From positions 310,001-374,000 of the forward strand of contig CALYLX010000117.1 in assembly GCA_944990035.1 (NCBI GenBank): a DNA stretch of 64,000 nt, written 5' to 3'. The first letter of the stretch is position 1; each line of letters begins with the position of its first letter. Source of the DNA: Clitopilus passeckerianus (Eukaryota; Basidiomycota; Agaricomycetes; Agaricales; Entolomataceae). The notes under the pieces are model-generated. The model was not told the origin of the DNA, did not search any database, and worked only from the letters and a program-made list of their open reading frames with translations. Both the position numbers and the translations under genes were made by a program. This document shows, piece by piece, positions 186 to 41,842 of this stretch.

Positions 186-3100
186 ATGTCGATGTTCAGT
201 GGTGCCAATGTCAACATTTACAGCGGCCAGTTCATCACTACAAAAGGGGACTTCTACTCCAATCATGTCGACGGGACTAACACAGGTTGGCAACCATATC
301 TCGCTCAGTCAAGCAGAATTTTTGAATTACAATATCAGATGAAAGACTGGCGAGGCGGCTGAAGGCATCCCTAGAAAGCCACCTATGGGACTTCATGAAT
401 ATCAATGCGTGTACCGAAGGCACTAGGGTGCGAGTCCTCCAGGAGATATTACATTGGATCAACATCGGCTCCCCAGTCAACTCACATCAAGCACACTTCA
501 CTCGTCCCTTCCAGCCAGACAGCCCCAGTATATTATGGCTCACTGGGGCTGCTGGAACTGGGAAAACAGCTATTGCAGCTACCATTGTCCGATCCTGTAG
601 AGAACGTCGAATTCTCGGCGCGAGCTTCTTCGTATCCCGCTTTGATTCCTCTCGGGCGAATCCGAAGTCAATAATTCCTACCATTGCATGTGGGCTGGCA
701 CAACGGAACACAGTATTTGGAGAGCAATTCGCCAAGAAACTTGAACATGACTGCGGACCGGGAGGGTTACTGGAACGTGATGCTATTTTCCAGCTCAATA
801 CACTAATCATCACCCCCCTACACGAAAACCTCAGTGGTGGCAATGCCAGCTCGGCGATTCACCCTGGACCCTGTGTCGTCCTCATAGACGCCCTCGACGA
901 GTGCCAACGAGATGATGAATCTCGGCCAAACGAGGAAACGGTCAAAATCGTCACCGCAATATTGGAGAATATCAAGGATCTTGCCCCCATTCGATTCATT
1001 ATTACATGCCGCCCCGAGCACAGGTTTCTTGACCTGATGAGAAAACATAAAAAGGTTGTCACAACCTTGGAACTCCATGATAAGCGGTGGACAACAGAAG
1101 CAGATATTGAAAGCTACTTCCGTCGAGAGTTTGAAACCAAATTGGAATATCTTGGTCCAGATTGGGTGTCAGAAGACGATGTCATCCGGCTCACAAGATA
1201 TTCGCAGAACCTATTCATTATTGCAAAAACCTGTATGGGGTATATAACGGACGAAATCGAAGGCAATCCTGAAGATAGGCTCTCTGCGCTTCTGGAACTC
1301 ATTCAGAATCACGACACATCCTCATTTACCTCGTTCACCCCAGAATCCTCCCCTGAGCCGGCTTCCAGCCTGGACAAACTTTACGAGGTCATTCTCAATC
1401 GAATGCCTCGGTATACAGATAGGCGTATGGTGTCCATGATGAGCGTACTTGGTACGATTGTTCTATGGCAATTACCACTCTCTGCTCGAGCTCTGGATAA
1501 GCTCCTCGGATACCACCAGTACGATGGTAGACACAGTCGGAACGCGCTCGAAGGGTTGCGTTCTGTTGTCATCATGCCTGACGATGACGCAGAAGACAAC
1601 GAAATGAAACTACTTCACCTTTCTTTCGGGGATTACATCACCGACTCGACCCGATGCAATCCTAAATTCTTGGTGGACGTTAGGCGACAACACGAATTTC
1701 TCGCCGAGCGCTGCCTGAAGATTTGGGAGACAGAGATGCATGGAGAACGCAGGGGAGAGATAGACCCAACCTTATCCCATTCCGTCACAGCGGAAAAGTC
1801 GCATATTAGATATGCCGCCCAATTCTGGGGTGACCACCTTCGTGGTGGATCTCACCCAATTCCATCCAGTATTCACGCCAAACTCCTCCATCTCTGCTCT
1901 TCGGAGTACATCCTTTATTGGATAGAATTTTGCGCTCGCCGTGGAATCCTTAGATCCGCACTTGCCAGTATCCATTCTGTTGCTCGTTTCGTTGAACAGC
2001 ATAATAACACTATGCAAGGGAATGCAGATCTATGTGAGCGTTTATGGAAAGCAGAGCAATGGATTCGTCAGTACTTCTCGTTATTGGAGGAAGCCCCACA
2101 ACAAGTTTATCATGTCACCTTCTCCCCTCCCCTCCTCGACGTCAAAGAACTCGATAACTCTTCCTCGTGGATCAGGGAGGTGGCTTTCCACAGGGACGAA
2201 GATTTGTCGAAGATTTGGCAAATCGAAATGGCGTCTACTGCCCGTAGCTGTGTCACCTTCATGCACGGCGACGACGAATTCATATTGGCCGCTACATCTG
2301 GCAGCCTGGAGATATGGGATATGCTCAGCGGAACACAAGTCGGCGCCTTAAACGGAGAAGAAAAGTTTACATCCGTAGCAGTCAGTGAAGACGGCAAGAC
2401 TGCAGCCTCGGGCTCCCGAAAGGGTGTCGTGCAGATCTGGGATCTGACCAGCGGGGTTTGCGAAAGGTTAATGGAAAAACACATCCATCCAGGGCTGATA
2501 ACAACTGTGGCCTTTTCCCCTGTCACGAAACGGAGGGTCGTTTCAGGGGATGCAGAAGGGAACCTCGTTGTGTGGGATGTCGAGAGCCGATCAGCTACCA
2601 GGAAAACGAATCTCAGACACGAAAGTGAAATCGCTACCATATCTTTCTCCGCAGATGGCTGCCTCGTCCTATCTCTGTCGAGGTTTGACCAGGTTCTCTG
2701 CATATGGGATCCCGATACAGGAAGGGAGCGGACAATTGGTCATATCCCAGCCAATGTATCCGCCGCAGCCTTCTCGCCTCTGAGGGAACACGGTAGTAGG
2801 ACGATGGTGTGTGGAACCTCCGACGGAGTCTTCCATTCGTGGAAGGATGGGACTGGTGGACTTCATTGGCTCAGCCAACCATACCCAGATTCATCTATTA
2901 ACACCCTCTCATTCTCACCAAATGGGTCGCAAATAGTCTCCCTGATAGATGGTGACCAACAGCCCCTTCGCATCCTCCTATTTGAGCTCGATGGTGGCTC
3001 CAGCAGATGTATAGTTTGCCCCGAGTTTGGCATTGAATCCTTGGTTTTCGCCAGGGATGGCAAACATATTGTGACATCCGATCCACAACAAGGTCGAATC

Positions 3101-4267
3101 CGTGCCCGTGTCTGGAAACAACCTCCATCACTCAAAGCTGAAACCATCAACATTTGCAGCTCACCAGTTGCATGTACTCTGTTTTCGCCCCGGGGTGATA
3201 TGTTCGTCATAGGCTTCCAGAGCGGGTCCATCATGCTTTGGAGTTTAACAAATGGCATGGCACGAAAACTTCCGGATTTCGAGAACTTTGTCGCAGGCGC
3301 CCGCGTGCTGGTTGCTGCCTTTTCGGCGGGTGGCACGATGTTGGGCATTGGTCTCGAAGTAACCAACGCCGACAAGACACATTCCCCTCCAGCAAAGACA
3401 GGCGCCATCTACCTTTCTAATGTTGTGAATCATTCCCAAGTTGACACAAAATTACGGATCCTGTGGCGATCTCGAGCTGTGGATAAGCTTGTGTTTTGTC
3501 CTATCAACGAGCATGCAATCGCCTGTTCCTCTGCAAACTCATCAGAAGTCGAGATTTGGGATCTTGGAAAAGAGGCCGTAACGAGTACGCTGCACGGCAC
3601 CCACAATCCAGCCAATGCTCTGAACGACCTTATTTTTTCTCCGGATGGGACCAAGATAGCGACCGCCTGCCGGGATAATGTGATCGCGATATGGGACATC
3701 ACCTCGGGAGCGTGTTTAGGGACCTTGGGGTTCAACAGAGGCCGGGCGGAGTCCATCTCCTTCACATCGGATGGGCTCGGGTTCATAGCTATGACAGTCA
3801 GCCGGGCTGTTGGGTTATTCGATATGAAGTGTTCTCTCGTCAAATTGGTGCCAGGCGGTGCTGTGGCGACTCAAAGGGGCATAGAGCCAACTGGGAGGTT
3901 AGTAGACCTTGTGGAGACCCTTGACAGATTTTGTGATTTCAATTTGGTGGGAATGGGTTCAGCTCGGCGTGGGGACTTCTCGAGATACAATAGCGGAAAG
4001 CTCACCTCTTTCCTGGCCAACCTTGATAGGGGTTCACGTCGGCCAGGTGAGAAACCGGAGATGATAACCGAGCATGGTTGGTTGTGGTGTCTCGTGCGTA
4101 GGCGGCGAATCATGCCCATTCCCAAATCGTTGCGGGTCGATCCAGATAGGGGATTGGCACATATGGGAGATTATGTCGTGCTTGCCACTGATAAAGGTCA
4201 AATCCATATTTTAGACATATCTAGGATGTTGCAAGAGTTGGATAGAGTAGATGCCGAAGTTGTTTAG
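186..4267 (+). CDS. NACHT-WD40 STAND (NLR-like) protein, NLR1
   Basis: Two exons, 186-285 and 339-4267 (53-nt GT-AG intron, phase 1), give about 1342 aa. The start at 186 is chosen because the short first exon matches the first exon of NLR2. The NACHT P-loop GAAGTGKT lies near residues 103-110 and Walker B VVLIDALDEC near 213-222. A helical middle region follows, then a WD40-type beta-propeller region from about residue 680 with many DGxxxxSGS...xIWD units. A conserved block, GWLWCLVRRRRIMPIP, lies near the C-terminus. Only about 100 residues precede the P-loop and I recognise no HeLo, PNP, lipase or TIR effector domain there. STAND proteins of this plan are ATP-dependent switches in which repeats sense a ligand and NACHT oligomerises; in fungi they act in non-self recognition. 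The WD repeats are divergent, unlike the near-identical repeats of HNWD genes. First of seven same-strand cluster genes. Family call is strong; the ligand is unknown. Confidence 0.9.
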
Positions 4268-4665
4268 CAAGCGCCTGTTCAAGTTGTAGGCGCCCGTTCA
4301 ACAATTTGGGCCGCTTATGTCATCTACATAGACTGTCTTGTAGTGTACCGTAACGTAACGATTCGTGAATTCAAATGCAGTCCGAATCCCACCGCAACCA
4401 TCAGCAGCCAACGCGTTTGAGTTGGAAAACAAGAGTTGTTTCGTCGTACTATGTGCCTCCGAGGCTGTGACTTACGGCAGCTTGGCTCATCCCGCTGTTA
4501 CGTATACCAGGTGATTGACACCCATTGTATTGTCAGAACAAAGAATCTCCATCAACGAGTGTTGGCATAATGACAAACAGGAAGGCCTTCTATCTCCAGC
4601 AGATGTCAATCAACTTAGAAACTCTTATATGGTGGCTCTGAATCTCCGCCCTTCATCACGCCGGG
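4268..4665. other. Intergenic, NLR1 to kinase-like A
   Basis: About 400 bases between the NLR1 stop and the start of kinase-like gene A. I see no supported gene, repeat or clear promoter box here; it should contain the NLR1 3' UTR and the promoter of gene A. Confidence 0.5.
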
Positions 4666-7011
4666 ATGAACTCTCAAACTCTACCACCTTGCTACATTCG
4701 GCAGCGAGACTTGCCTGCGGCGCAATCTTACTTGCTCAGACTACGAGACAAGCAATTCACTCAGAATCCAACCCGATACGCCACAATCATCAAATGGATC
4801 GAAGCTTGGATTGAGTTAGGGGATGATGCTCAATGGTAAACCTTAAGTTTCAATCATTCGAAAGTGGCTGACATTCAAATCTAGGGACGATGCTATCTAC
4901 GAGAAGCTGAAGGCTCAACTACTTCAGATCGTGGTTTGGCTTAATCGTGATGCTACTCTCATCAGGGAATTGAATGCGATACTGCCACCCGGGATTTCAG
5001 TGTTTTGTTCGCCTGTGAGCAAAGCTGTCGATGCCAGATCAAAATCTGCTCCTCTGCTTCGAGAAACCTATTTGGGCTGGCGGCTGCTAGAGTCGGCTCA
5101 CCCTGACCAACCCCTTCCTCTCGATGAACCTAATATCCATCCAACAGCTGAAGAAGCCGAGAGGCTCAAAGACCCGGGGGTGCGATATGTCACACTGGTC
5201 ACTCGCCAATCTGGTGAAATACTCCCAACGATACCTCACTACAAGACTGGGCGCTACCACACCATTTTTGCTCTGGACGATCTCATATGTGCTATGCCTG
5301 TGGATGATAGCTGGGAATTTGTTACAGATTTTGCCCAGCGCCACGGCTGGGACTACTGTCTCATGGACTTACTAACACAGGTAAGTTGAATCGCTTCGAC
5401 GATGGAGGTTCCTCATAGGTGAATTTTAGCAAACCAACGGTCATTGTTTGAACCCATACTATGGCAGAATGGCGTTTCTAAGACAAGCCCAAGCAGCAAA
5501 GAAGTATGAAGGGTTGCCCTCTAGCCTTTACCTCCACAACGTGACAAAAACTTTGGAGCCGCAAGTCAATAAGCCATCTGATGATCTTCAATCTTTCGGA
5601 GTGAGCGAGGAATAATTTTCGTTTACCATTCGCCATTCTCATTCTTGAAAAAATTCTTAGACGATATGGAAGGGAAAGCTAGCTGATCAGTCTATTTGTT
5701 TCAAAGTCGTTAGCATCGTCGCCAAACCGGACAAGTCACTACAGGAGAACAAACGTGCCGAAACTTGTCTGAAGGTAGCGACCTCGTGCTGCTGAAATTG
5801 TCCGTACTCAACGTACTTCAGGCTCTCCTTCGTGAAGTCCTTTCATGGCATCGACTTGATCATGTCAATGTACTCCCCTTCTTGGGGGTGAATTTCTCCG
5901 AGTTTGGCTCTTGGGCATTAGTTGTACCGTGGAGGAGGAAACGGGACCTTCTTACCTATCTACAACGACGGGGCTCTACAGATGATTTGACAGAGTTCAA
6001 ACAACGAGCAGTGAGCATACCTTTATACACATAACTTCTTGTCCCTTGCTTAAGTTAACAGGTCTATGACATTGCGCAAGGTCTGGCCTATCTACACAAT
6101 CAAGACCCCCCGATCTATCATGGCGACCTTCAAGCAGTGAGTTCTACCTCTGTTTTGCGTATCATCCACGAATATCTAACTACTCTTGGCGCTGGTAGTC
6201 TCATGTCCTGATCACGGACGATCTCCGATGCCAGCTGTTCAACTTTGGATTGTCATCGCTTCCGGAAAGATACAGGGTACAGAGTAGGTCGGAGACAGAT
6301 CAATCGACCAGATGGCGACCACTTGAATATCTCCGGGTTGGTCCGGAAGCTAGGCGGATTAAACCTGCGATCGATGTCTATGCATTTGGATGCGTCATTG
6401 CAGAGGTATGTCTGGGTTTCAGGGCTTGTCACTATTTCACAAACTGACGAGGATTAAGATATATACCGGAGAATGCCCCTGGGGCGGGACAACACCTATC
6501 GATGACGTCCTTGCCAAGCTCATAGCTGGATCCACACCGGGATTTGGTACATCTTCGATTAAATCTCGAAGGACCGTACCGCCCGCAGTTCTCAAGGACT
6601 TCGCAGTCGAATGTTGGCTTCAAGAGCCTTCAAAACGCCCTCAGATAACGGAGCTTGATATTCCCGTCAAGTACCGAAACCCCAAACCCGAACCTTCCCA
6701 CCAGAAACCAACTTATACAACCGATTTCGTCGAATGGTTATGCAACGAACGACGAACTCTCGAAGCTGATCCACAGGGTTGCGAAGGTATCTTAATGGTT
6801 CGCCACTTTCCATCTTGATCTTGAGCGGCGCCTCAAGCTTACTACTCTTGCACAGGCTGAGACGATGGTTTTACCCAAAATCGATGAGGAACCTTCTCCT
6901 GCTTTAGAAGCAGTGTCTGGCCGCATGTCGAGGCCCACAAAACCAAGGCACGCGTCAAGGCTTCAATTGATACTTGATCACATGTACGAGAAGAGAGATT
7001 GGGACTACTAG
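4666..7011 (+). CDS. Pseudokinase-like protein A (cluster paralogue)
   Basis: Nine exons with phase-consistent joins: 4666-4835, 4885-5380, 5430-5600, 5661-5774, 5822-6010, 6062-6136, 6199-6405, 6459-6797, 6856-7011; about 638 aa. Residues 1-225 form an N-terminal domain shared with paralogues B-E that I do not recognise. The kinase fold follows: a glycine-loop remnant FGTIWKGK, beta3 lysine kept in ICFKVV (about K294), alphaC glutamate kept in LLREV, catalytic loop HGDLQA-SH where the HRD aspartate stays but the loop asparagine is His, DFG changed to NFG, and APE changed to PLE. Loss of the metal-binding Asp and Asn predicts a pseudokinase. A tail of about 100 residues after the kinase fold resembles the tails of C and D. 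The start is chosen from the match of MNSQTLPPCYIRQRDLP to the MAWNYR-N-LP starts of C and D. Function not established. Confidence 0.8.
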
Positions 7012-7757
7012 TAAACCTCTATGATCTCCTTATGACTATCCCCTGTGTCTGTTCGATTTACCAAATTTTATGTGTCCATGGCCATCCGACACTTTCTAAG
7101 CCGGCTGGAACCTGATCATTGTCTTTCTGCTGGGTGCGTTGTAACCCCAATTGATCTTTCAGATATCCGGGAGCTCTCAGGGTTCTGTGCCAGTTTGGAT
7201 CTTGTATTCTATCAAGCCCCATCTCAGCTCCCCGCAGACAATATTGCTTGTTGTCGTTGTCACGGCTATACTGTACCCTAGGAAAATGATAGCCAGGAAT
7301 CGGCACGATTCCCTAAAAGTACAAAAGTCGTTGGATGGATGGATGAATTGGACATGCTTGAGGGGCTGTGTAGCAACGCAGGAAAAAAAGGTGACAGAAT
7401 CTGATTCTACCACCTCCGCTTCGGGGCGGAAGTAAAACAAACCCATTGGACGCATTCCAGAACAAAAAGCCGGTAACTAATGCTGTTGTTCTTTGCTGAC
7501 AGACCACCGCCACGATGATCTGTCAATGTAGGCGAGTGTGGGTCCCACTTGATGGAGATCGGACACATCACAACTCCCAAGAACGGAACAAACTGGACCT
7601 ACAAGCATCTACAAGGGCCCACATAAGGACTCATGTGTCAGGTCCATCTATCGATAGTAGAAAAGATGGCCGCTCTTGGGTATCTTCCGCCACTTTTCTT
7701 TTCTTTCATCAACCTTTCCCTCCGCGTTAAATTCTCCGACCGCCTCCTGGACAAGAC
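7012..7757. other. Intergenic, kinase-like A to B
   Basis: About 750 bases with only short unsupported reading frames on both strands. I see no gene, tandem repeat or RNA gene. Confidence 0.5.
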
Positions 7758-9837
7758 ATGGGCTACCAGCCACCCGCATTTATCAGGCGAAGTCCCAGCG
7801 ACGTTTTCCTATCCCTGAAGAGCCTATGCCCTTCAAAGGAATTCAAGGATATTTTTGATCGTTGGCAGAATCTTCGTAATTGTCCCCCTCAATCATTCAG
7901 TCGCGGCGAGTGAGTAGCTGAGGATGACACTATTCACATAGTCTTTTTTACTGATTCATACATTGTAGCATCAACAGAGTGAAGTCTGAGGTTATCAAAT
8001 TTGTCCACTCACTGCAAGAGAATTTTGCCCTAATCCAAGAGCTTAACTCGATACTGCCCCCAACTTTCACGCTGTCTTGCCACCCCGACGTCAAGGATGG
8101 TACCCGAACAAAATACTTCGTATTGCTCTCGGACTCGTTCCGCCTGTGGGGTGAGATCTACTCGACCAGACCAGAACCAATCGAGGGCCTGGAGCCCGTC
8201 TGGACCTCGGACGACATCAACAGAATCGTCGGGAGAGAAGCTTGGCACGAGACTGGAGTCGAAGCCAGCCAACGTGACGGTTGGCTGCCGTGTCTACTGG
8301 ATTTATTGAGTTGGGTAAGGCGTGCGCATCCAAACCATATTTATCATGTTTACCCATTTCTTTCTCCAGGAACTCGAGTATCCCTGGCTTGATATTGGCT
8401 TCCGACAGCTATTGACACGCACCCAAGCGGATCTCGTCAAAGTTGCTAAACAACTCCCATTCACTTGTCACTGGAATTATAAAGATTTGGAAGTGAAAAC
8501 TTCCTTCGTGACAAGCGGCCCAGCCCCAGTATGTATTCGTTGTGGCGGTCATGAACCTCTCAAGATCAGTCCTGATAGCCCATTCTTAGAAATGTCACGA
8601 GGGGGCCCTCCGAGGGCAAGACGTATGGGTGCAATACTTTGAATCAAATGGGAGTGCCGGCAAGTTTGAGGAGAAGGTACGAATTTACGTTATGGCCTAA
8701 ACAGGTCGGAACTTATGAGAACTGGCAGGTTATTGAGAGCGCTCTTGCTTGCCGTAACATTCAACACCCCAATCTCGTTTCTTGGACGAGCCTATATTCT
8801 ACGGATAACGAGAAGTGGGTTCTGGTCACTCCCAGAGGTGGAGTCTCTAGTATGCAAGAGTTCTACAAAGGATCATGGACAGAGAATGACCGTTTCAAAC
8901 TGGATGTTGTAAGTTACTCCCATGGGTCTTCGCTTTAAATGTCTGAGGGTCTATACAGGTCAAAAATATAGCTGAGGCTTTGTACTATCTCAATTGCATT
9001 GAGAGATGGCGGGGAGGTTTTACGATGGTATCGTACCCATTTTTGTACGGCCGCGCCCTGTCTTCTGACTTGTGTCTTCCGTAGGCGGATCTATTTATCG
9101 ATGGCAATAAGCGTTGCCAAATCTCACACCTTTGGGATCGTTCCGTGTCCGAGGAGCGTCAACCAGTTACCACTTATGTTGTCCAACACCCCAAAAGGTT
9201 CGAGCGGATGCAGCCGGATGCGGAAGCACTGGGAAGAATTGTTCATCAGGTGGGCTGGGAGAAACTTTTATAGTAACTCAATATGCTCATCCATTTGGTG
9301 GTGCGTCCAACTCAGATGTACCCATCTGATTTACCATTGGAGCACAGGCTACCAAGTTGTGACTCAAACCTAGACCCAAGTCCGTTGAGCAATCCTGGAA
9401 GCCCTTGTAATTCTGTAGAGGATCTGGTTCGTTGGCTTCTCCTTCTTGCAGGAGGATATCCTGGGTGGATCAAGGAGGACCTTCGCCGAGTTAGTTCGTT
9501 GATCGACGGGGTGACACCTAATATTGAATTAGTACGTTTCGTGAAGTTATTTGGTCATCCTGTGTTGACTCATCACTGCCTCCAGCGTGAACCCAAGCAT
9601 GAACCCAGTGAAGATTCGGACTCGGACTCGTCGACCCTTGTCCTCGGTTCTCCGGTCTCTGAGGATGTAGAGGGTGGCAATGCAGGTTTTGCTGCCAAGG
9701 AGGGACTGCTCAACAACATTTTCAAGAGGGCGAAGCCTAAGCAACTGGTTCAATACGAACAGGAGAGCAAGAAGAAATACGGGTTTGGCTTCCCCTGGTC
9801 ACGAAAGGGGAACAAAGGTGCTGTCACAGTCAAATGA
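7758..9837 (+). CDS. Highly divergent pseudokinase-like protein B
   Basis: Modelled exons: 7758-7909, 7969-8314, 8370-8528, 8590-8676, 8729-8908, 8959-9027, 9085-9249, 9316-9837, with a possible in-frame 54-nt intron at 9532-9585; about 540-560 aa. Exon order and phases match the other four paralogues, which is the main proof of homology. The N-terminal domain is recognisable (FALIQELNSILPP, GWLPCLLDLLSW). The kinase part has lost nearly every motif: the glycine loop is gone, the beta3 lysine is Gln (VWVQYF), the alphaC Glu is replaced, the HRD region reads RWRGGFT, DFG reads SHL and no APE is visible. The last exon is unlike the tails of A, C and D and is rich in Ser, Asp and Lys. The reading frame is nevertheless open throughout, so it is probably a functional non-catalytic protein rather than debris. 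Confidence 0.7.
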
Positions 9838-10304
9838 ACCAGCCCCGTTGTCCACTCTAGCATACCAGTGGTCAATTGTTCGCCGCCTTTGGTTATCGAT
9901 CCGTTGTAAATTATGAGACTTGTAATGAGACTTGTTAATAATTATGGCACATGGAAATTGCAGGGCTGGTATAGGGCTGGAGCCTTCGCAAGCCATCGTC
10001 CTCGAAGTTAAGAAAATTGGACCCACACATCTAGGATGCGCTAAGTCTAGTCACACAGTTATAACGTGTCCATAGTGTAGGTTTGATCGTTTACGCAGCG
10101 TGGAGACATACGTGAATAAGTGGGTATGCTGCATATCTGTGTGCCGTTAAGAGACAATTGAAGGCAAGCGACTGCTTCATTCTTCGTGATCCATAGAACT
10201 GCAGGGACCTTATATAAATGACTGGGGTTGATTGAGGTCATGAGTTAGCTCGAAATAAGATCACAGACTTGATCACAGATGCCCGTGAGTTCCTCTTACG
10301 CTTC
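9838..10304. other. Intergenic, kinase-like B to NLR2
   Basis: About 470 bases without a supported gene. It holds the 3' flank of gene B and the upstream region of NLR2. The NLR2 reading frame stays open upstream to an alternative ATG at 10269, so the NLR2 5' end could be 36 bases longer. Confidence 0.5.
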
Positions 10305-13300
10305 ATGTTCGAAAACGCACAAAACCCTATAATTTATGGCGGCACGTTTGTGCTTCAGCAGGGAGATCAACATATAATACACAACACCGTGAACCATATT
10401 TACGGGTCGTCACTGGGACCAGGTAAGCAACAGTACAGATCGTATTGCAGGCCGTAGTAATCGATAAATCGAACGATAGAAGCAACGACACCTTCCGAGA
10501 CTTTGCCCTTTTTCGAGACCCTTAGCGTGTCCGATATTCCTCGATGTACAGAAGGCACGAGAAACAAGATCATCTCGAAGATCCTCCAATGGATCAACAT
10601 ACGCTCGACAAAGGGCGAGATGCTGGGTAACAAACTGCCAGAGCTTCTCATATCAGACAATGGTTCAGGTCACGTTTTCGACTCGGGCTCGCCGAAGATT
10701 CTATGGTTGGTTGGGGGGGCTGGTATGGGGAAGACGACATTGGCATCCACGATTTCCGAGATTTGCTACAAGGAAAAGGTGCTGGGAGGCAGTTTCTTTG
10801 CAAAAGTCAACGTCCATGGTCGCAGCGATGCGAAATCAATCTTCCCCAGGCTTGCTCAAGGATTGAGCAAACACAGCCACAAGCTTCACCCCAGCTACGG
10901 GAACCTGGTGGAGAAGAGCCTCCAAGATTGGCATCTCCTTCAACAACTGGAGTTCATCCCTCAGTTGGACGAGCTTTTCGTAACACCACTTCACCACGTA
11001 GAAGATGTCAAACCCAGCGTCATCGTAATCGATGCACTTGACGAGTGCCAAGATCGGTCCGCCTCTGCCAGAGCCCTCGCAGCACTGGCTGAGAAGGTGG
11101 AGGAACTATCCCCACTTCGTTTCCTGGTGACCAGCCGCAGAAACCTGGAATTTGAAATCGTTGTTAGGGAGCATAGTAACGCCATTTTTACGATGGATAT
11201 GGATAGAGAAGATCCCAGCGAGGTCACGGCCGATATCCAACGCTTCCTGTGGCGAAACCTCCGTTCTCCTGATGCCAGTGGTTGGTGTGCCACCGACGAG
11301 GAGATCATGCGGCTCACCTCCGCAGCCAACGGTCTCTTTGTCTACGCAGCAACTTGTGTCAAATTTGTCATTGATGACAACGTCGATAGCCCTCACAGTA
11401 GACTCCAAGAGCTTCTCGATTTATTGAACCGTTCAAACAGTTCCCTTCCCGGCCTCAGTTCTCTTTATGAACAGGTTCTCTTCAGAGTGCCGCCTTACGA
11501 ATCCAAACCAAATCGGCTCGCCGAGTTCAACACAATTCTTGGGGCTGTCGTCTTGCTTCAAAAGCCGATGCCTCTCGAATCCCTAGCTCAGCTGCTTGGA
11601 TTTGAAACAACAGAGGCCCGCAGATACCTTAGCTCCATGTACTCTGTGGTGCATGTCCCCAAGGGTCCGGATGACACGGATTCCGTTGTTCGAGTATTTC
11701 ATGAGTCCTTCAGCGAATTCATGCAAGATCCCAAACAATGCACTAGGTTTTGCATTGACCCACAGGCACAGCACCCCTTCCTTGCGAGCAGATGTATCCA
11801 TGTTCTAAAAACGAAGATAGAGTCAGCTGCATTAGCCGCACGCCAGGCATCTCGGCTGGTAGACCCCACAGAGACGATGACGAGCTCTAGAAAGCTTGCC
11901 TATCGTAACGCGATACCCCTAGACGTGCAGTACGCAGCGCAATTTTGGGGATACCACTTGTGTGCTATCAACAAATTGACAAGCTCGGATGGAGTTTTAC
12001 AGACGCTGCTGGAGCTACTCCAGTCTCCCCTGATACTCTCCTGGATTGAGGTTTCCGCGAGCATGGGAGTTCTCAAAATGGCATTCTCCAATATCGTGTC
12101 CTCTCGCTGTGCCCTCGAAAACCAGGCCAAGAATCCGTTTCACAGGCCGTCGCTCAATTGTCTTGATCGACTCCGCAGAACCGAGCAATGGCTCCATCGT
12201 TTCTACAGCATCATCGATGAGATACCCTCGCAGGTCCCCCATTTAATATTTTCCCCATTCCTTCTTGATCAACCAATGGGCAACAAGTCATGGATCAAGG
12301 AAATCTCTCTTCCCGGGCTCGAAGCCCAACCAAATTTCTGTGAAAGGGAGATCAAGGCAGACGGTTGTACCCGCTCGATTGCTACCTTCATCGACGACAA
12401 CAGGGATGAATGCATCCTCTCTGCCACAGAAAAGCGGTTGTACATATTCGATGTACTTACTGGAAAGGAGATTAACCGCCTGGAGGGACACACAGGCGCA
12501 ATATGGTCCATTGCTGTGAGCCCGGATATGAAGTTCGCAGCATCCGCCTCCTTAGACAAGTCGGTTAAAGTATGGGACCTTAGAAAAGGACTTTGTCTGA
12601 AGACAATCGCTGCACATCAAAACATAGCTAGGGCGGTAGCATGGTCTCATGACCAAAGATTCGTTGCCTCTGGGGGGGTTGATAGAAAGGTGCGGGTGTG
12701 GAAAGCAGGGAGCAAAGACGAAGAGCAATTGCCGATCTTTGAAGGAGACCATGACGATACAATCAGGATGGTCTCATTTTCAGTGGATGGTCAATACGTC
12801 GTCTCAGGCTCTCCCGACAAGACATTACGTGTCTGGGCCCTCCCAGGTGGCGAAAAGAGGGGCTGTGTGAAGAAATTCAAGTGTTCCAAGGCGATTATTG
12901 CAGCAGCATTCTCCCCTTGTGCAGAAACTCCCGGAATAATGGCGTGTGCGACTTCAGGTGGTCTGGTTTACCTGTGGAAGACGAACGACTGGTCCCAGGA
13001 ACCTCAAGTTTTTGACGAATATGACGATCACCAAATAACATCTCTCACCTTTTCTACCGACGGCAGAAAACTCGGCTTTATAGCAGAACGACCCGAGAAT
13101 GCAATCTCATATATCCACGCCATTGGGATCCACTCGAGTTTTTCAAACTGCATCGTCGCTCGCGAGAGAGGGTTTAAAACAATGACTTTCTCCAGGGACG
13201 ACCGGAAGATAATGACTTCCGGCGGAGGATCCCGCACAATCTCAATCTGGAGTCTAGAGCACGCAAATAACAATCGCTCCTCCAACTCAGTAGATCAGCG

Positions 13301-14387
13301 GATTAGACAAGTCGTATTCTCCCCAGACGGCGGCTTCCTTCTGGCCTGCTCAATCGACGGATCAGTCATGCTGTGGGAAATGAAGGGGCCTTTAAGGCTT
13401 CTTACCAAGTTCCAACGAGATATGCCGGTATGCAAGGCCGTGTTCTCCCCAAATAGCCTGCTTCTCGCCATTGGAGACGGTGTAGGGGGCTCGGATAGTC
13501 CTGAATCCGCAGGTACCCTATGTCTGATCGATGTCACATTACACGCCCATCCCCAACATCTTGCTGATTCCCCTTTTCCGGTCAGCTGTATAGCTTTCTC
13601 GCCAGATGGAGAACATATTGCCTTTTCTGTCGAGAAAGCAATTGTTCAGATATGGAGCCTTCGACAACGAAGAATACTCACAAGGCTGGGCGGTTCCCAG
13701 AGGACACATACAATGCGTGCGATGTCGTTCTCTGCCGACGGGACCAAAATCACAACTGTAGCGTCTGACAGTGACATAATTCTATGGGATATAACCACTG
13801 GACAACTCATCGGATTCTTCCCCGGCAGGCTGTATCGCCACGAAGCAGAGGGCGTCGCTTTCACCTCAGATGGAAGCGGAATCATCGGGGTCACATCCGC
13901 GGGAGCAGTGGGCCTGTTCGACGCTGAGAGAGTTGGTTTGGTGGAGTTGGTGGGAGGGGGAGTGAGTGGAAGCAGGACAACTCAGAGACATCCACATCGA
14001 AGGAAGTTTCTGGACTTCCTTCGAGCAATGGAGCTTTTGAAGGAGAATAGGCTTATCGGTAAAAGAAGTGGCGAAGGCGCGGAGAGCAAGGATGTAGGGA
14101 GTTTCGGCTCGTGGAACGCACCACGACTTGCAGCATACCTGGCTAATTCCAACCGCGGTACAGGCCCACACCCAACGATCATGATCGTTGACGGCTGGTT
14201 GTGGTGTATGAAGAGACTTCGACGTATCATGCCCATTCCGCAATCCTTCAAGGTTAGCGACCTAACGCAGGTGGGCAATTTTGTGGCAATTGGATCGATT
14301 ACGGGGAGAGTATACGTCCTTGATATATCTCAACTCGTCGAAAAGCTGGATGTAATTGACTCCGAGTCAGAAGAACGACGCGGCTAG
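10305..14387 (+). CDS. NACHT-WD40 STAND (NLR-like) protein, NLR2
   Basis: Two exons, 10305-10422 and 10480-14387 (57-nt intron, phase 1), about 1341 aa, one residue from the length of NLR1. P-loop GGAGMGKT near residues 118-125 and Walker B VIVIDALDEC near 220-229. WD40-type repeats run from about residue 670 (for example EGHTGAIWSIAVSPD followed by ASASLDKSVKVWD) and the C-terminal block GWLWCMKRLRRIMPIP is shared with NLR1. The first exon starts MFENAQNPIIYGGTF, which has the spacing of the NLR1 start (F--A-N--IY-G-F). As in NLR1, only a short leader precedes NACHT and no effector domain is recognisable. The two NLRs are ancient paralogues: motif order is the same but most residues differ. 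Likely an ATP-driven sensor switch; ligand unknown. Confidence 0.9.
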
Positions 14388-14822
14388 CAATACTCATTAA
14401 GACGGTCTCAGAGAATGACGTAGTAATTTTCTACGGAATGTTCTACCGTAGACCTCTGAACATAAACAATAAAGCCACTTTGTTTGACTCTTGTATTCAT
14501 CAAACAAGGACATCTTATGTTGCTCTTTGGCAGGTGTATCACTAACTTCGCAACGACCAACGCCCACACTTGGCCCACAATCTGGTTCCACCAAAGCATG
14601 CATTGTCCCTGAAAGATCCAAACGAGACTGATCCACTCTTGTTCTCTTCATGAAACGAATTTGTCCTTGAACCAAATACGGATTCTTTGGCTCATAATGA
14701 ATTAGTTACTGCCTTATTAAGTCGCGTCCACACAGAGGATTTACTCATCCTCTTCACGTTGCCCACATCCTCCTCAAACTCACCCTCCTAGCGTACACAC
14801 CTTCAAGAACAAGACCTGAATA
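14388..14822. other. Intergenic, NLR2 to kinase-like C
   Basis: About 435 bases with no gene that I can support. It contains the NLR2 3' flank and the promoter region of gene C; I see no clear TATA box. Confidence 0.5.
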
Positions 14823-16965
14823 ATGGCATGGAATTACCGCCAGAACGATCTGCCTGCAGCGGTAGACTACCTCAACAAACTGCGAAGCAAGCTCGACGAT
14901 GACCGTTACTTCACCTTTCTGAACTGGGCTAACGCCTGGTCTAAGCAAAATTTTTGTTGGTAAACTCATTCATGGTGCATTTACACCTGCATATCACTAA
15001 GGCTTTTTTGTCTAGCAATCGTGACACTGAACTCAAAGAACAGATTATGCAAATCGTTGCCTGGTTGGCGAACGATTGTGAATCAATTCGAGAGCTGAAT
15101 TGTATCCTTCCTCGAGGAATTGCGTTCCTGAGTCCCCCAAGATCAGGCGACAGTTCCAGCACATACTATGGTACCCTACTCACGGAAAAATGGGGTGAAA
15201 TTCTATCGCTCGAGCAATCATCTGTCACAGGCGGCTTCCATGTAATCTTCACTTCCGATGACCTGTCGAGCGCTCAAGGAAACAACACTGATTGGGCTCA
15301 TTGTGTCGATGTCAGTCTCAACGAAGGGTGGGGAGCTTGTTTGGCTGATCTTCTGTCAAGGGTACGAGCTATGCCATGCCATTCTGATAGACCATTAAAC
15401 CCTTGAATGTTAGGAGGTTGATGACCCTTCAAACCCTAAAACGATCCAGCAATTGGCATTTCGGAGGCAGATCGATATGGCGAAGGAACATGAATGCTTT
15501 CCGACGCATATACTCCTACACAAAGTCTTTAAAACGGGAAAGCAAGCTGAAAGATTAGCTTGTATTCGGACCTTTGCGGTGAGGCCGAGAATCGTTCACC
15601 CTGTCCCTTCCCACTTACGCATACTACAAAGGAACGTTATCGAGGCAAGATAGGGGAAGAACACGCTGAAGGCCGTGCTGTATGCCTGAGGGTTTTTCAA
15701 AGAGCAACGGCGCGTGATTGTGACACTCGCGCTGATTATCTGTTCAAGCGGGTTGGTCGATTATTTTGGGCCCCTTCGTTCCTTTCGATTTTGAAATCAG
15801 CTCCAGAATGTTCTTCGTGAAATCTTACCGTGGTACAGACTGAGGCATCCCAACTTAGTTCCCTTCCTGGGAGTTAAAAAGGTTGCAACGGGCGTGCAGA
15901 AAACCAGGCCAGGGAGGTGGACCCTGGTTGTTCCATGGATAGAAAGAAGAGACCTCCTGACGTACATCCAGAAGCAACAACCGGATTTTGAGTTTAGGAG
16001 GAATGCAGTACGCATGAGACCTCTGTTGGTTTCCGAACTGCCCTAATATCAACCTGGCAAGGTCTACGACATCATACAAGGATTGGCATACTTGCATAGT
16101 CAAGCACCCCCTATTTTCCACGGGAACCTCAAAGCGGTGAGCACAAATGGTTCACTTAGATTTTTCAAGTTTTTTGATGTCCTTCTCCTAGTCCCATGTT
16201 TTAGTGGATGAAGACGGGACATGCCTCCTGACTAACTTTGATACCTATCGGCTAACCAGGGATTATGCTGCTAGTGCCACTCAAACCGAGAGCAGTGAAA
16301 AATGGCAAGCTCCGGAAGTATTCAAAGTTAGTATTCAGGAGACGGATAAAGCTGCCGTGGATGTTTATGCGTTGGGATGTGTCATAGTTGAGGTTGGCGG
16401 TTCCTTTTGTTCCTCCGTTGCAACGGCCGAAGCTTCACATTTATATTAGATTTACTCAGGCAAAATACCACAATTCGGCGCCGAAAACCTTGAGAACAGT
16501 GTAAAGACACTAGTGGGGGAAGGCCATAGGCCTGATGAACCAGATGACCTGCCAGAGGACATACAAGCCTTGATGTCAAGCTGTTGGGAGATGGAGCCCG
16601 CTGAACGGCCCAAAATTATAGATTTGGCGAATGAATATCGGATAGATAGGCCACTCAACGAGAAGTGGTTTTGGAAGCCCCAACCCTCCGAACAGTTGTC
16701 AGAATGGGTGGCCAAACAGATTTCGGCTCTTTCGGAGCAAGGTGCACGGATGCAGGTATGCACGCATAGTTCAGAAATACGAAGTTGCTTATTGGAAAAA
16801 AAGGAGGAATCACCAAAAATACTATATGTCACCGTTGACGATGGTAGCATGTCGTGCAGCTATCGTCCCTCCAAAAAGCCCGGGAGGCCCACTGGATTGC
16901 TCCGTGTTTTGGATGAAGCTTACAAGCACGCAGAAGAGCAACCCACGGCACAAGTTTTATCATGA
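14823..16965 (+). CDS. Pseudokinase-like protein C (cluster paralogue)
   Basis: Exons 14823-14959, 15016-15361, 15414-15578, 15632-15751, 15801-16007, 16062-16136, 16192-16392, 16450-16965, with a probable further in-frame 48-nt intron at 16756-16803; about 572-588 aa. Start MAWNYRQNDLP is nearly identical to that of D. The N-terminal shared domain (IRELNCILPRGIAFL, GWGACLADLLSR) is followed by the linker FPTHILLHKV and a kinase fold. Key changes: beta3 Lys is Arg (VCLRVF), alphaC Glu kept (VLREIL), HRD is HGN so the catalytic Asp is Asn, the loop Asn is His, DFG is NFD, APE kept (QAPE). It should not transfer phosphate. The conserved tail WVAKQISAL...GARMQ follows the fold. Closest relative is D, directly downstream, suggesting tandem duplication. 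Confidence 0.8.
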
Positions 16966-17594
16966 GGTCGGCGGAGCACCTTTAAACAAGGTCTTCGTTC
17001 TTCCTTTCCTACAGTCCTTTCATCCTATGTTCCACACGGTCTGTATGTATAAGTGTTTTAAGATAATTCATTCTCGTCTTGCATGGACTAGAATCTATTT
17101 CCCTCCTCAATCACAAGTGGCAATGCTTTGTCAACTGGTCTCCGTGCCGGTCCAGCCGCACGTCTCGCGTGATCGTGTTCCTGTTTAGGGACCTATGCGG
17201 TTTACACACACCTCCACACACACGAGCCTGACCTGACAATAACATTTGGCATTGCTGTGAAAGCCGTTAATACACCGCGACACCCTCTGTCATTGATCAC
17301 TGTGAACTACTGAGCCGCCTCGAGGACACGCGTTATTGAGAGAGCCTAGTCTTTGGGCCTATACGACTGGGAATGGAGACGAGACGAACACAGCCAAAAG
17401 GTCTACTCCCCTTGGCCGGGCCAGTGCACCCTCCCTGAAGTATAGCTGTATTAGCTGTATTCGAGCCAGATGATTGGCCCCTTGTCAATGAACAATGGAC
17501 CCTCACTGACTACTCAAGTGAGTTCACCTCGAGGGCTTTATGCATATACTTCGCTGGTCCAACTCCAACCGTGCATAAACTCTGGAGACCAACG
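16966..17594. other. Intergenic, kinase-like C to D
   Basis: About 630 bases without a supported gene. There is a short CA-rich stretch near 17205-17225 and a tandem TAGCTGTAT near 17443-17460, both too short to mean much. It contains the C 3' flank and the D promoter. Confidence 0.5.
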
Positions 17595-19754
17595 ATGGCA
17601 TGGAATTACCGCCTGAACGACTTACCCACCGAGGTAGCCTACCTGAGCAAACTCCGGGAAAAGCTCGACGACGACCGTTACTTGACTGTTCTCAGGCGCG
17701 TTGCCGCCTGGTCAGACGCGGGCCAGAACACTTGCCGGTAAGCCCATCCTTCGTATTGGTACCCCTGCGTGTCACAGAGCCTTCTTGCTAGCGAACCTCA
17801 ACTGCAAAACCAGATGATGCAAATTATTTCCTGGTTGAAAGATGATCTCGAATCCGTCAGAGAGCTAAATTGTATCCTTCCTGAAGGGATTGCGCTGCTA
17901 GTGCCACCGAGATCAGTACTAGGGAAGGATGCGACTCGGTATTATGGCACGCTCCTCACGGAACAAGGAGGCGAGATTCTATCACTCAAGCAATCCCCCG
18001 ACACTGGCGACTTCCATGTTATTTTCAACTCGGATGACCTCTTGACAGTTCGAGGAAATAACACCGATTGGGCCCATTGCGTCAAATTAAAGCCGGTAGG
18101 AAAGAAGGATGGGGACTATGTCTGGCGGATCTTCTGTCAAGGGTATGTGCCATGTCATGCCACCCTCTGAAAGGTTCTAACGTGGGAAGTTAGGAGGTTG
18201 ACGACCCTTTGAACCCCGAAGACACCAAGCAATTGGCAGTTCGGAGACAAATCGAGTTGCTTGTAGATCAACAATGGTTTCCGACGCATCTACCTCTCCA
18301 CGATGTTACTCGGACCGGGCAGGGCCTAGAAAGGGTCCCTTGTTCCTATACCTTTGCGGTTAGCATACGTCGTTCGCCATATACCTCTTCCACTAATCCA
18401 TACCGCAGGAACGTCACCGAGGTGAGATGGGGAAAGGGCGTGCCGTATGCTTGAATGTCTTCCAAAAGCCTAAAATGCGTGACTTCGACCCGGTTAGAGA
18501 CTACCAATTCTTGCGGATAATTCGGTTTTTTGCGTCTACTGCGCTCTTTTCTGCCCTTACACCACCTAGCCGGTTTTTCGTAAAATTATTTCGTGGTGCA
18601 AACTCAGGCATCCCAACGTGCTTCCTTCCCTGGGGTTGAACAAATGCTCAACCTGGCCCTCGTCCTCGAAAGGCAGGTGGACCATGATTGTTCCGTGGAT
18701 AGAGAGAAAGGACATCTTGAAGTACATCTCGGAGAATAAACCAAATCTGACGTTCAGGAAAAATGCGGTATGTTGCAATCTCATCTGCCTTGTGTCATCA
18801 GTCCTGATGTCAGTCCGGCCAGGTTTGCGACGTCATACAAGGATTGAAGTATTTGCATGAACGAACTCCTCCGATCTTCCACGGTGACTTCAGAGCGGTG
18901 AGAATAAACATTGCCTCGCTTGCCTAGGTGTTGTGATTACCATGCTCCTAGGCTCAGGTTTTTGTGGATGGAGATGGCACATGCCTCCTGATCGACTTTG
19001 ATACTTATCGAATAACCGAGGCCTATACCGTGGGAGCAGGTAATCGTCAACTCGAATATGAAAGTGAAAGGTGGCGAGCTCCCGAAGTACTCACAGGAGG
19101 CCCTAATGCTCTGGCGGGTAAGGGTGCCGCAGACGTTTATTCGCTGGGATGTGTAATGGTGGAGGTCAGCTATTCTTTTTTGATACTATTCTGATAGCGC
19201 AGGCTGAAGTTGCAATGGCGTTAGATTTACTCTGGAAAAAGACCCCAGTTCATCGGTACTAATGAACAGGATATAGGAAGTCTCGTCGTCGAGAAAGGCT
19301 GCATATACCCTCTGGTATTCCAGAAGAGATCTTAGAGACGATGGGCAAATATTGGGCAAGGGAGCCGTCCGATCGGCCTATGATAACATATCTCGCGGAT
19401 GAGTACGCGGCAGACCGGTCAGACCTCTCAGGTGACTCAACCATACACCTGGACACTCACCAGAGATGGACATGGAAGTCGCAGCCTGATGTTGTAGCAG
19501 ACTGGGTGGCGCAAGAGGTTTCAGCTCTCGACAAGAGAGGTGCACAGATGCAGGTATGCATGTCATGGGGACACGAACAATACTTACGGGACCAACAGGA
19601 GGACCTGCCAAATATTTTGTACATCTGCGTTGACAACATGTCGGGTGCCTATCGTTACTCGAGTAAAAAGCCTCCGCGGCCAGCTGGAGTCATCCGTGTT
19701 CTCGACGAAGCCCGTGATGCAGCCGAGAAACAAGAGCCCAGGTTTTTATCGTGA
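17595..19754 (+). pseudogene. Pseudokinase-like paralogue D, with frame breaks
   Basis: Paralogue of C with the same exon plan: 17595-17737, 17792 to 18095 or about 18154, 18194-18358, 18409-18492, 18570-18767, 18823-18897, 18952-19164, 19225 onward, tail to 19754. Exon 2 has a net +5 shift relative to C just before the GWGLCLADLLSR segment; an upstream donor after 18095 would restore frame by deleting that segment. The exon 4 donor used in C reads AT instead of GT, and a donor after 18492 would serve. In the last exon the paralogue-like frame hits TAG at 19333-19335, while the homologous sequence (IPEEILETMGKYWAREP) continues in another frame; an acceptor ending at 19280 would rescue it. Kinase motifs: beta3 Lys is Asn (VCLNVF), alphaC Glu is Lys, HGD kept, loop Asn is Gln, DFD. 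Either a decaying copy or one living on shifted splice sites; cDNA would decide. Confidence 0.65.
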
Positions 19755-20276
19755 GGCTGGCGGACCACGTTTAAAGAATGACTTCGCCCTTTCTTTCCTT
19801 TAAATGCTTTCAAGCTGTGTCCCATAGCTCCTGTATCGGTGTTTTTTCGGATAATTTGTTCTCGGCTTGACGCCACGGAATACAGTATGTTTCTGAGTTC
19901 GAAGGTTCGGGTGGCGATGTTGTGTGGCTATGCGGAGGATTCTGGACGAACAAACTATTGCCGCACATTTTCAGTGACCGGGTCCGATCGACGACTAGTC
20001 ATTTGCTTCCAACTCATACGAACGAAAAATACTGTGAAATGCCTCGTGATGCACACCTCTTCTCATTGATTACTGCGGAAATACTGAGCAGCCTTGAGGA
20101 TTCGTCGCTCAAGGCTGTACTGGTCCCTGGGACCCATAATACAAAGGACAGCTGAGGATGCGGTTTCTATCAAGTTGCACTGCCATACGTTCAACAGCAG
20201 TTATGCATTGCCTAGTCCAACATTGATATAAACCATGTCATCTTCCCCTCAAGGGCGCCCAAGCACAATCTGAATC
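19755..20276. other. Intergenic, kinase-like D to E
   Basis: About 520 bases without a supported gene. Near its end, at 20225-20231, lies a TATAAA-like box about 45-50 bases before the start codon of gene E. Confidence 0.5.
20225..20231 (+). promoter_or_regulatory. TATA-like box upstream of kinase E
   Basis: The sequence gATATAAAc ends about 46 bases before the start codon of gene E at 20277. Spacing is somewhat short for a fungal TATA box with a 5' UTR, so this is a tentative call. Confidence 0.3.
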
Positions 20277-22110
20277 ATGGTCTGGCAACGACGCTTTGAA
20301 GACTACTCCAGCGAAGAGTGTGTCACCTTTAGGCGCTCGCTGGGAAAGACACTGGAGCGCCAAGGGATGGACTCCAACTCCGTATCCTACGTGGACTCGT
20401 TGTTGAGACGGATGGAGGATCATCGTGCAGGGCCTAGGTGATGATGCTTGACATTGCCTGGATGAATTCGAGCTCAATTTCTTTTACAATTGCAGGGATT
20501 GTTTGACAAGGGACCAACTCGTTTACTTCACTCAGATCCCAGCCCTCCGACACTATCCTAATCTTTTGCGCGGCCTGAACCGGTATCTATCCAGGAAGTC
20601 AAGGCTGGGGCTTTCCTGTTCCGATGACGTTCCGGTTGAGTATATAACTATATTGGATCGTGACCATGCCGAGATAGTTGGTTTCTATCACCCCAGGCCC
20701 CCTATCATCTCGTCTCTTGAGCTCTCGCGCTCGGTCAATGACGAGAATCGCTGGGAAAGAATGTTGTTTGAGTGCGACAGCAACCCCTCATGGGCAAGCT
20801 GCCTGTTGGAACTTTTGCAATGGGTAATCACAACCATCATCACACTTTTGAGCCCTCTGACATATAATATCATCCAGGAACGAGAATTTCGTGGCGACAA
20901 CAAGTCGTACAAACGCATAGTATCCCGTCGCCAACTCTCAATCTCTAAGAGGCTCTCGCGCATCCCGCCTTCAATGCATTTGAGCGAAATCCGGATATTA
21001 TCTGACCAAAGGGCTACCAATGCCAGTAAAGGTTACGGGGTATGCTATATTCTCCGGCACATTGTAAAAATGGACTAATAATCTGGTTCTTGATAGGATA
21101 TCTATCAAGGCGTAGCTGGGGATAAGCGACTCTGCTTGAAGCTCATTCGAGTGGACTCCCTCTACAACCGAACCACCATCATGAAGGTGAGTACGGAGAG
21201 GCTCGTTACGTCTACGATGGTACCCTCACCCTTGAGCGACAGAGCATCCTTCGCGAAGTCATCCCTTGGAGTCGTATGAATCACCCAAACATCATACCAT
21301 TCTGTGGGGTTACCGACCAGATCCCCGACTGGAAGAATCAAATAGCCCTTGTCTCCCCATGGATGGATAATGGCAACATCACCCAGTATCTTCACCGAAA
21401 CCCCCGACAAAACAGGCTGCGTTGCGTGCGTTCACATTTCCCGAGGCTTTGTTCGGTATTGGCTGAGATTTGAAACTCACAGGTTCAGGACATCATCGAA
21501 GGCTTGAGGGCATTACACAGCTCGGAGCCACCCATATTCCATAGAGACATTAAAACGGTGAGATATAAACCTCGCGGCTGTTTCTTTCGGTAAGCTGATG
21601 TGGATTCATAGGCGAACGTCCTGGTCGCAGACGATGGTGCCTGCTGTCTAGGAGACTTCGGATTGGCATCGATTTCTGGATCCCAAAGAGTCGAAAGCAA
21701 GAGTAAAGGTCCCGTTGGTACGATACGCTACCATGCCCCAGAAGTTATCCAGTCTTCCCGCCAGGGTGCGCCAACAGAGCCAGCGGTTGCAGCCGCTTCT
21801 GACATGTGGGCACTTGGATGTGTGATCTACGAGGTCAGTACTGAAATCCCTCGTTCTTGATTCCGTCTCATTGCTTATACAACAAAAGATTTATACAGGA
21901 CATCGCCCATATGCGGCATATTCAGCCGATGGTGCTGTTATCAGGGCCATTGCGATTAAGAAGGAGCTGCCTGGCGAATTGCCCCCATATTTGCCTCCTT
22001 TCGTCCGGGATTTCGTATATCACTGCTGGACGAGAGAACCACTTTTCCGCCCGAAGTTGACCGATCCTCAACTCCCCCACCGCTATCCAGGTCTTTTGCC
22101 TTACTACTAG
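20277..22110 (+). CDS. Protein kinase E, the only cluster paralogue with intact catalytic motifs
   Basis: Eight exons: 20277-20437, 20496-20823, 20878-21039, 21097-21186, 21243-21425, 21483-21557, 21612-21833, 21889-22110; about 480 aa. The N-terminal 163 residues are a divergent version of the domain in A-D. The kinase fold is complete: glycine loop remnant SKGYGDIYQG, beta3 lysine in LCLKLI, alphaC glutamate in ILREV, HRDIKTAN with catalytic Asp and Asn, DFGLAS, HAPE, then SDMWALGCVIYE and the conserved Arg of EPLFRP. It therefore probably phosphorylates Ser/Thr (HRDIK signature) although the family is distant from well-known kinases. It ends soon after the fold and lacks the tail of about 80-100 residues that A, C and D carry. 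Same-strand last member of the NLR/kinase cluster. Substrate unknown. Confidence 0.85.
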
Positions 22111-41640: not shown

Positions 41641-41700
41641 GAGTTGACTGTGCATCATCCAGGTGATTCTGGCCTTTGGGGAGTTGACTCTGCGTCATCC
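41641..41700. repeat. 20-bp direct repeat with 40-bp period
   Basis: GAGTTGACTGTGCATCATCC at 41641-41660 recurs as GAGTTGACTCTGCGTCATCC at 41681-41700, 18 of 20 identical. Confidence 0.7.
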
Positions 41701-41790
41701 TCTGGTTGCTCAGGGAAAGCATCCTTTGGTCTACATGGTAAACTACACAGAGCTCATATGGTTTCACTTCCTTGAGAGACTGTGCTTCCC

Positions 41791-41842
41791 AAGGTGTCAG
41801 ACGGCAGACAAGGTATGTACCTTGTCTGCCGTCTGGCACCTT
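41791..41842. repeat. Near-perfect 25-bp-arm hairpin
   Basis: Arms 41791-41815 and 41818-41842 are reverse complements with a single mismatch and only two bases (TG) between them. Core of the arm is CAGACGGCAGACAAGGTA. It sits near the middle of the inverted-repeat element and could extrude as a cruciform or form an RNA hairpin. Confidence 0.85.

Follow-up and report, generated by a model that had tools for sequence, protein, structure and literature searches.

The 64,000-nucleotide stretch of the Clitopilus passeckerianus genome analysed here (contig CALYLX010000117.1, positions 310,001 to 374,000; hereafter the window) carries near its left end a cluster in which two genes for NOD-like receptors (NLR1 and NLR2) are interleaved with kinase-fold genes (A to F), an arrangement that we tentatively read as a recognition module. 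Gene models were obtained by splice-site scoring followed by manual building from paralogy and, together with the motifs, bear out the order NLR1, A, B, NLR2, C, D, E on a common strand that an earlier note on this DNA had proposed (Table 1). All seven genes of the cluster as delimited there are present, but the cluster continues beyond the window with an eighth gene, F, which ends about 0.1 kb to its left and is intact on both haplotypes. The second of these haplotypes is represented by contig C2, which runs collinear to the window plus its left flank for about 103 kb in three long blocks of 93.6-94.7 % identity with a hypervariable part between, and which we infer to be the other haplotype of the dikaryon. 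A, B, C and E are complete genes sharing a structure of seven introns of 47-66 bases each at positions that match by eye, so that the introns described as common to the kinase genes are common to these four, while D is broken in the window haplotype. Each NLR consists of a long open frame and a separate short first exon divided by one intron.

Table 1 Features of the NLR-kinase cluster (window positions unless a contig is named)
Feature	Position	Strand	Description
NLR1	186..4267	+	NACHT-type (NPHP3_N)-WD40 protein, 1342 amino acids; intron 286-338
NLR1 exon 1	186..285	+	Short N-terminus with candidate amyloid-like motif (pattern compared by eye)
A	4666..6818	+	PAH-like domain and pseudokinase, 593 amino acids, 8 exons
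B	7758..9837	+	PAH-like domain and degenerate pseudokinase, 559 amino acids, 8 exons; groups with F
NLR2	10305..14387	+	NACHT-type (NPHP3_N)-WD40 protein, 1341 amino acids; intron 10423-10479
NLR2 exon 1	10305..10422	+	Short N-terminus with candidate amyloid-like motif (by eye)
Block of raised haplotype divergence	11500..17298	.	3′ part of NLR2, NLR2-C gap, gene C and C-D gap
C	14823..16965	+	PAH-like domain and pseudokinase, 588 amino acids, 8 exons; 73.8 % identity to its own allele
C exons 1-2	14823..15361	+	N-terminal domain including the PAH-like part
D	17595..19754	+	C-type pseudokinase gene, frame broken in the window haplotype, open on contig C2
E	20277..22110	+	N-terminal domain and kinase with intact K/HRD/DFG, 480 amino acids, 8 exons
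F	C116:307821-309887 (window -2179 to -113)		Pseudokinase, 546 amino acids, eight introns; adjoins the window on the left

Both receptors have the make-up of fungal NLRs, a NACHT-type NTPase with Walker A and B motifs followed by C-terminal superstructure-forming repeats. The NACHT relative NPHP3_N scores 72.2 bits in NLR1 and 81.2 bits in NLR2 (Pfam cut-off 24.8) and WD40 scores 86.0 and 153.3 bits (cut-off 27), with Walker A read as GTGKT and GMGKT and Walker B as LIDALDE and VIDALDE, respectively. In keeping with the view that the two proteins lack a recognisable effector domain, none was seen among the 25 best-scoring Pfam matches (of 50 and 58, respectively) to their open frames taken without exon 1. 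By eye, the short N-termini fit the pattern described for a group of amyloid-like motifs that many Agaricomycete NLRs carry right at the terminus (PMC9815663; here and below, cited articles are represented by excerpts). After their own alleles NLR1 and NLR2 are reciprocally nearest in the genome, aligning over near full length at about 34 % identity with the next NLR far behind. Against the protein database NLR2 gave 447 matches at an E value of 1e-30; the 120 listed show mostly 23-31 % identity, and the named proteins among them are fungal and cyanobacterial, none of them close. A genome search with NPHP3_N placed NLR2 and its allele among the 150 places listed (150 of 585 scored), NLR1 not being among these. 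With PF05729, an older model of NACHT, the 87 places listed (87 of 257 candidates scored) included neither receptor.

Of the cluster kinases only E keeps all three catalytic motifs (K/HRDIKxxN/DFG). The same positions read K/HGD..H/NFG in A, Q/RGG..D/none in B, R/HGN..H/NFD in C, N/HGD..Q/DFD in the intact allele of D and K/HGE..N/NFG in F. Within the window this agrees with the earlier count of five paralogous kinase-fold genes, one intact and four broken, with two reservations. B scores 14.0 bits against the Pfam kinase model, under the cut-off of 23.1, and is therefore called kinase-like by paralogy, and D in the window haplotype has lost a splice donor and shows, relative to its allele, two length differences that break the frame, whereas the allele on C2 (D′) is an open gene of 593 amino acids. 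Searching the protein database with a profile of the six kinases returned six proteins at an E value of 1e-20, namely P0123 and five that cover 35-66 % of E. P0123 is letter for letter the product of the E allele on the second haplotype; its contig, intronless and at 1,529 bases shorter than the 1,832-base gene span with introns, most likely derives from a spliced transcript, and the identity supports the E gene model. A tblastn search of plasmids with the E N-terminus gave no match, as expected. About 30 kb to the left of the cluster lies another kinase (C116:280271-280952, minus strand) with a 37.6 % match to E over part of the kinase region.

The N-terminal domain of the cluster kinases appears to resemble most closely the PAH domains of Sin3. 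This assignment draws on the four-helix PAH profile and on a model with fold matches for the part of D homologous to C exons 1-2, in which the best listed folds are of the PAH/HHD type; in C, the intron at 14960-15015 separates the stretches taken as helices 2 and 3. As PAH had first been guessed by eye, before the PAH comparison was run, the profile comparison is biased towards it, and the domain stays below the Pfam gathering score, with no PAH (PF02671) match listed at E values up to 10. With C as a single sequence the best PDB match was an unrelated enzyme (E value 0.02), a single-sequence Pfam search gave nothing useful for the domain, and the protein database searched with C residues 1-230 yielded 1,103 candidates, none at an E value of 0.01. 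A profile search of the PDB returned 75 sequences at E values up to 10. The best value was 0.079, and most of the sequences were chains of cytochrome oxidase, caspase-3 and interleukin-4; the Sin3-type protein pst1 came in at 0.23. The likeness to Sin3 would favour a family of transcription or chromatin signalling kinases tied to Sin3 biology, with the NLRs as bystanders. We consider this very unlikely, as the family sits in an NLR cluster, one of its members diverges together with the neighbouring NLR, and folds of the PAH/HHD type serve widely as adaptors that bind peptides.

Exon 2 of C, E and F, encoding part of the N-terminal domain, was used to query the whole genome (64.8 Mb in 160 contigs) at E values up to 0.01, and no match fell outside the locus or its allele (14 of 14 matches for C, 2 of 2 for E and 6 of 6 for F lay there). 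The situation that the earlier note had named as counting against a functional unit, kinase relatives elsewhere without NLR neighbours, was thus not seen within this genome with these three queries, A and B exons not having been among them. A general rule of kinase-NLR proximity was rejected, since among 135 listed kinase places 2 have a listed NLR within 10 kb, against an expectation of 5.3. Both lists are partial, the kinase places being 135 of 149 listed matches (14 were dropped as second matches of a gene) and the 159 NLR places comprising the 150 listed with NPHP3_N, seven listed with PF05729, and NLR1 and its allele, which were entered manually. Outside the locus a single listed kinase place, G000:C143:834231-834971, has a listed NLR within 10 kb, and it contains stop codons.

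Relationships among the kinases point to a common history with the NLRs. Protein identity is 30 % between F and B, 38 % between A and C and 57 % between C and D′, while E reaches at most 29 % with any other member. In a tree of the cluster kinases with three database kinases, the split of F and B from the rest is supported at 100/100 on all columns and at 92/90 on the N-terminal part alone, although both branches are long and the grouping could be helped by attraction. Support for joining A with C and D is 86/87 on all columns and 91.5/89 on the N-terminal part but drops to 58/58 on the kinase part; E groups with the database kinases (92/93). F thus appears to pair with B, and A, less firmly, with C and D. 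Taken with the reciprocity of NLR1 and NLR2, the gene order is most readily explained by an ancient duplication of a single triad, which gives the locus the look of two copies, [F-NLR1-A] and [B-NLR2-C-D], with E in addition. Co-location could instead be a matter of history only, both families having been tandem-duplicated in a fast-evolving region while their products work separately. The tandem and decaying D-type copies would fit this, and since kinases among the listed places are generally not near NLRs there is no wider rule to lean on. However, the NLRs and the two pseudokinase types were apparently duplicated in the same order and have stayed linked on both haplotypes for as long as the present identities of about 34 % (NLRs) and 30-38 % (kinases) imply, and the three exon 2 queries found the kinase family nowhere else in the genome. 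We regard co-location by history as unlikely, though still deserving serious weight.

Divergence between the two haplotypes is unevenly spread along the cluster. The flanks average 95.7 % identity over 72 one-kb intervals, the lowest being 85.8 %. Allelic amino acid identity and synonymous divergence (dS) are 93.6 % and 0.098 for F, 93.2 % and 0.149 for NLR1, 91.5 % and 0.171 for A, 90.8 % and 0.182 for B, 82.7 % and 0.357 for NLR2, 73.8 % and 0.618 for C, and 98.3 % and 0.093 for E, the values for B and C being computed as far as the point where the second haplotype loses its frame. Both B′ (C2:45550-47631) and C′ (C2:54815-56947) lose their frame in the last exon, which may be real truncation or assembly error. 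Within NLR2, dS rises from 0.043 at the N-terminus and 0.118 in the NACHT domain to 0.296, then 0.529 in the WD40 part and 0.549 in the tail. From this gradient and the dS of C it follows that the repeat half of NLR2 and C share one old block, E and the flanks being young. As at incompatibility loci, allelic divergence stands well above that of the surroundings (dS 0.62 in C against 0.09 in E, on two haplotypes). Five other allelic-looking NLR pairs, compared over 3 kb, were 99.7, 90.7, 95.2, 92.2 and 90.3 % identical, against 94.4 % for NLR1 and 87.6 % for NLR2; these control pairs were picked for having nearly the same profile score, a choice that leans towards similar alleles. Of the seven pairs NLR2 diverges most, yet NLR alleles vary anyway.

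The second haplotype alone carries an extra broken D-type copy, X (C2:57504-59671), which lies between C′ and D′ and is closer to D than to C. Each haplotype therefore has one broken D-type gene, X on C2 and D in the window haplotype. Identity intervals from 17.5 to 19.7 kb were excluded because they pair D with X, and D was compared directly with D′ instead, giving a dS of 0.162 and a ratio of nonsynonymous to synonymous divergence (dN/dS) of 0.41 over 588 codons. This ratio is 0.09 for E, a sign of strong constraint. Between haplotypes A, B, C and F, though catalytically broken, show purifying selection (dN/dS 0.23-0.32), and so seem to be kept as non-enzymes.

Outside these genes, a 989-amino-acid open frame on the minus strand (22706-25675), acidic and of low complexity by eye, borders the cluster. 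Diverged repeats of 64-70 % identity, F-box-like by eye, lie at window positions -7427 to -6269 and on C2 at 28748, 103460 and 105740. At 40832-42842 the window haplotype has about 2.0 kb that is missing at the matching place on C2; this insertion has inverted terminal repeats of 34 bases (82 % complementary), lacks any frame above 80 amino acids and is non-autonomous DNA-transposon-like. No Rfam match was found in positions 1-23000 of the window.

Our preferred reading, to which we give a probability of roughly 0.48, is a recognition module of NLRs and pseudokinases, apparently restricted to one lineage, that consists of two diverged triad copies, [F-NLR1-A] and [B-NLR2-C(-D)], and the active kinase E. 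Each pseudokinase would serve the NLR next to it as a standing adaptor or bait, bound to the WD40 propeller, and through its PAH-like domain it may hold an amphipathic peptide that belongs to a different protein. The trigger would be a foreign factor, or a non-self partner allele, that alters the pseudokinase or brings in kinase E and so releases the NLR, which could then oligomerise through its NACHT domain. The short N-terminus would nucleate the output, probably local cell death, via an executioner encoded elsewhere. In the best reading NLR2 and C form the fast-diverging face of the module. The suggestion of a guard or decoy module like that of the plant NLR ZAR1 gains from the constraint on the broken kinases, the apparent joint duplication of NLRs and pseudokinases, the divergence block spanning the NLR2 WD40 part and C, and the low dN/dS of E. 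Several points weigh against it: D is a broken allele in the window haplotype, kinase-NLR proximity is no rule of the genome (gene C itself being one of the two places within 10 kb of a listed NLR), and ZAR1 belongs to another NLR class, its partners not being known to carry a PAH-like domain.

Signalling might also run in reverse, in a necroptosis-like manner, with an activated NLR recruiting E, and E phosphorylating the pseudokinases as executioners or relays, as RIPK3 acts on MLKL. One active kinase does stand beside several pseudokinases with an N-terminal helical domain, and some fungal HELL domains occur in proteins with a kinase or pseudokinase domain according to a review (PMC12881547). 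Yet no HeLo/HELL or MLKL-type Pfam match was listed for A, B, C and E (E values up to 10) or for F and D′ (up to 1), and the best listed folds are of the PAH/HHD type, which leaves room for an unlisted fold. Amyloid templating from the NLR N-termini to the cluster kinases was unsupported by a shuffle test of 12 comparisons with 300 shuffles each. The numbers of shuffles equalling the real alignment were, for NLR1, 300 with F, 145 with B, 66 with A, 52 with C, 0 with D′ and 133 with E, and for NLR2, 286, 84, 131, 213, 19 and 265 in the same order; in 11 of the 12 comparisons, at least 19 shuffles thus did as well. The exception lies in the N-terminal domain of D′ and not at its C-terminus. Both NLR N-termini align best in D′ to residues 92-109, a strand-rich part of that domain, with NLR1 better than all 300 shuffles at residues 92-107 of 593; we treat both matches as a weak lead in favour of this reading. 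As no cluster kinase has a matching C-terminal motif, the executioner is probably encoded elsewhere. Constraint on pseudokinases without full catalytic motifs suits an adaptor or bait, and together with the missing C-terminal motif it leads us to prefer a bait and switch that acts before the NLR to a death cascade from NLR to pseudokinase, which we judge distinctly improbable.

A more specific possibility is that C and the WD40 half of NLR2 have adapted to each other as a non-self recognition pair of long standing, alternative haplotypes being maintained by balancing selection and a mismatch triggering death. We hold this to be rather doubtful. The divergence data are those of two haplotypes, from which balancing selection is not provable. 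If it held, the pair would be a candidate determinant of basidiomycete somatic incompatibility or of pathogen recognition, with a pseudokinase as the recognised ligand. For basidiomycetes, a 2021 article says of the mechanisms behind somatic incompatibility that they 'remain completely unknown' (PMC8229728), and a polymorphic NLR-partner pair offers a concrete, testable candidate. The recognition module proposed here would also point to pseudokinases taking part in fungal immunity. In plants, pseudokinases serve immune NLRs as adaptors or bait, and the same logic in a fungus with another NLR class, other kinases and a PAH-like domain would suggest repeated origin. A literature search, with most subscription journals outside its coverage, showed no fungal NLR-pseudokinase recognition cluster among the titles and excerpts listed, the nearest statement being the one cited above on HELL domains that occur with kinase or pseudokinase domains.

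The nearest parallel is in Arabidopsis, where ZAR1 works with clustered ZED1/ZRK pseudokinases, adaptors or proposed decoys, and with PBL kinases, and needs its intact LRR domain (PMC6634424). Common to both are an NLR, clustered pseudokinases without the conserved kinase motifs and an active kinase. The receptors here combine NPHP3_N and WD40, whereas ZAR1 has coiled-coil, NB-ARC and LRR domains; the N-terminal domain of the pseudokinases here is PAH-like, and their genes alternate with those of the NLRs. The binding of pseudokinase to NLR, and conditionally to an active kinase, that marks the ZAR1 system would be a prediction for this locus. Because the NLR class and the N-terminal domain of the partners differ, the parallel is one of logic only. 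Among fungi, guard-type incompatibility pairs include het-e/het-c and plp-1/sec-9 (PMC10197012), and NLRs have SNARE or exocytosis neighbours in Botrytis and Aspergillus, the local divergence peak at Aspergillus fumigatus incompatibility genes extending only several hundred bases past the coding regions (PMC11138114). Like the present locus these show a polymorphic NLR, thought to monitor a host protein, with linked partner genes and a local peak of allelic divergence. Unlike it, their partners are lipid-transfer, SNARE or exocytosis proteins, and incompatibility has been demonstrated experimentally, in Ascomycota. The NWD2/HET-S and PNT1/HELLP amyloid signalosomes (PMC5485727, PMC7885112) likewise cluster an NLR having a short N-terminal region with partner genes, but here the partners give no HeLo/HELL match and share no motif at the C-terminus. 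Interleaving also sets the cluster apart from the vic4 locus of Cryphonectria parasitica. That locus reportedly has a kinase-like allele; if so, NACHT-WD40 and kinase-like genes would meet at one recognition locus there too, but as alternative alleles rather than as an interleaved array. Both vic2 and vic4 encode STAND proteins (PMC4986451). By analogy, then, the Clitopilus cluster appears ZAR1/ZRK-like in its logic and not homologous, and is a member of neither the ZAR1 system nor the fungal guardee pairs.

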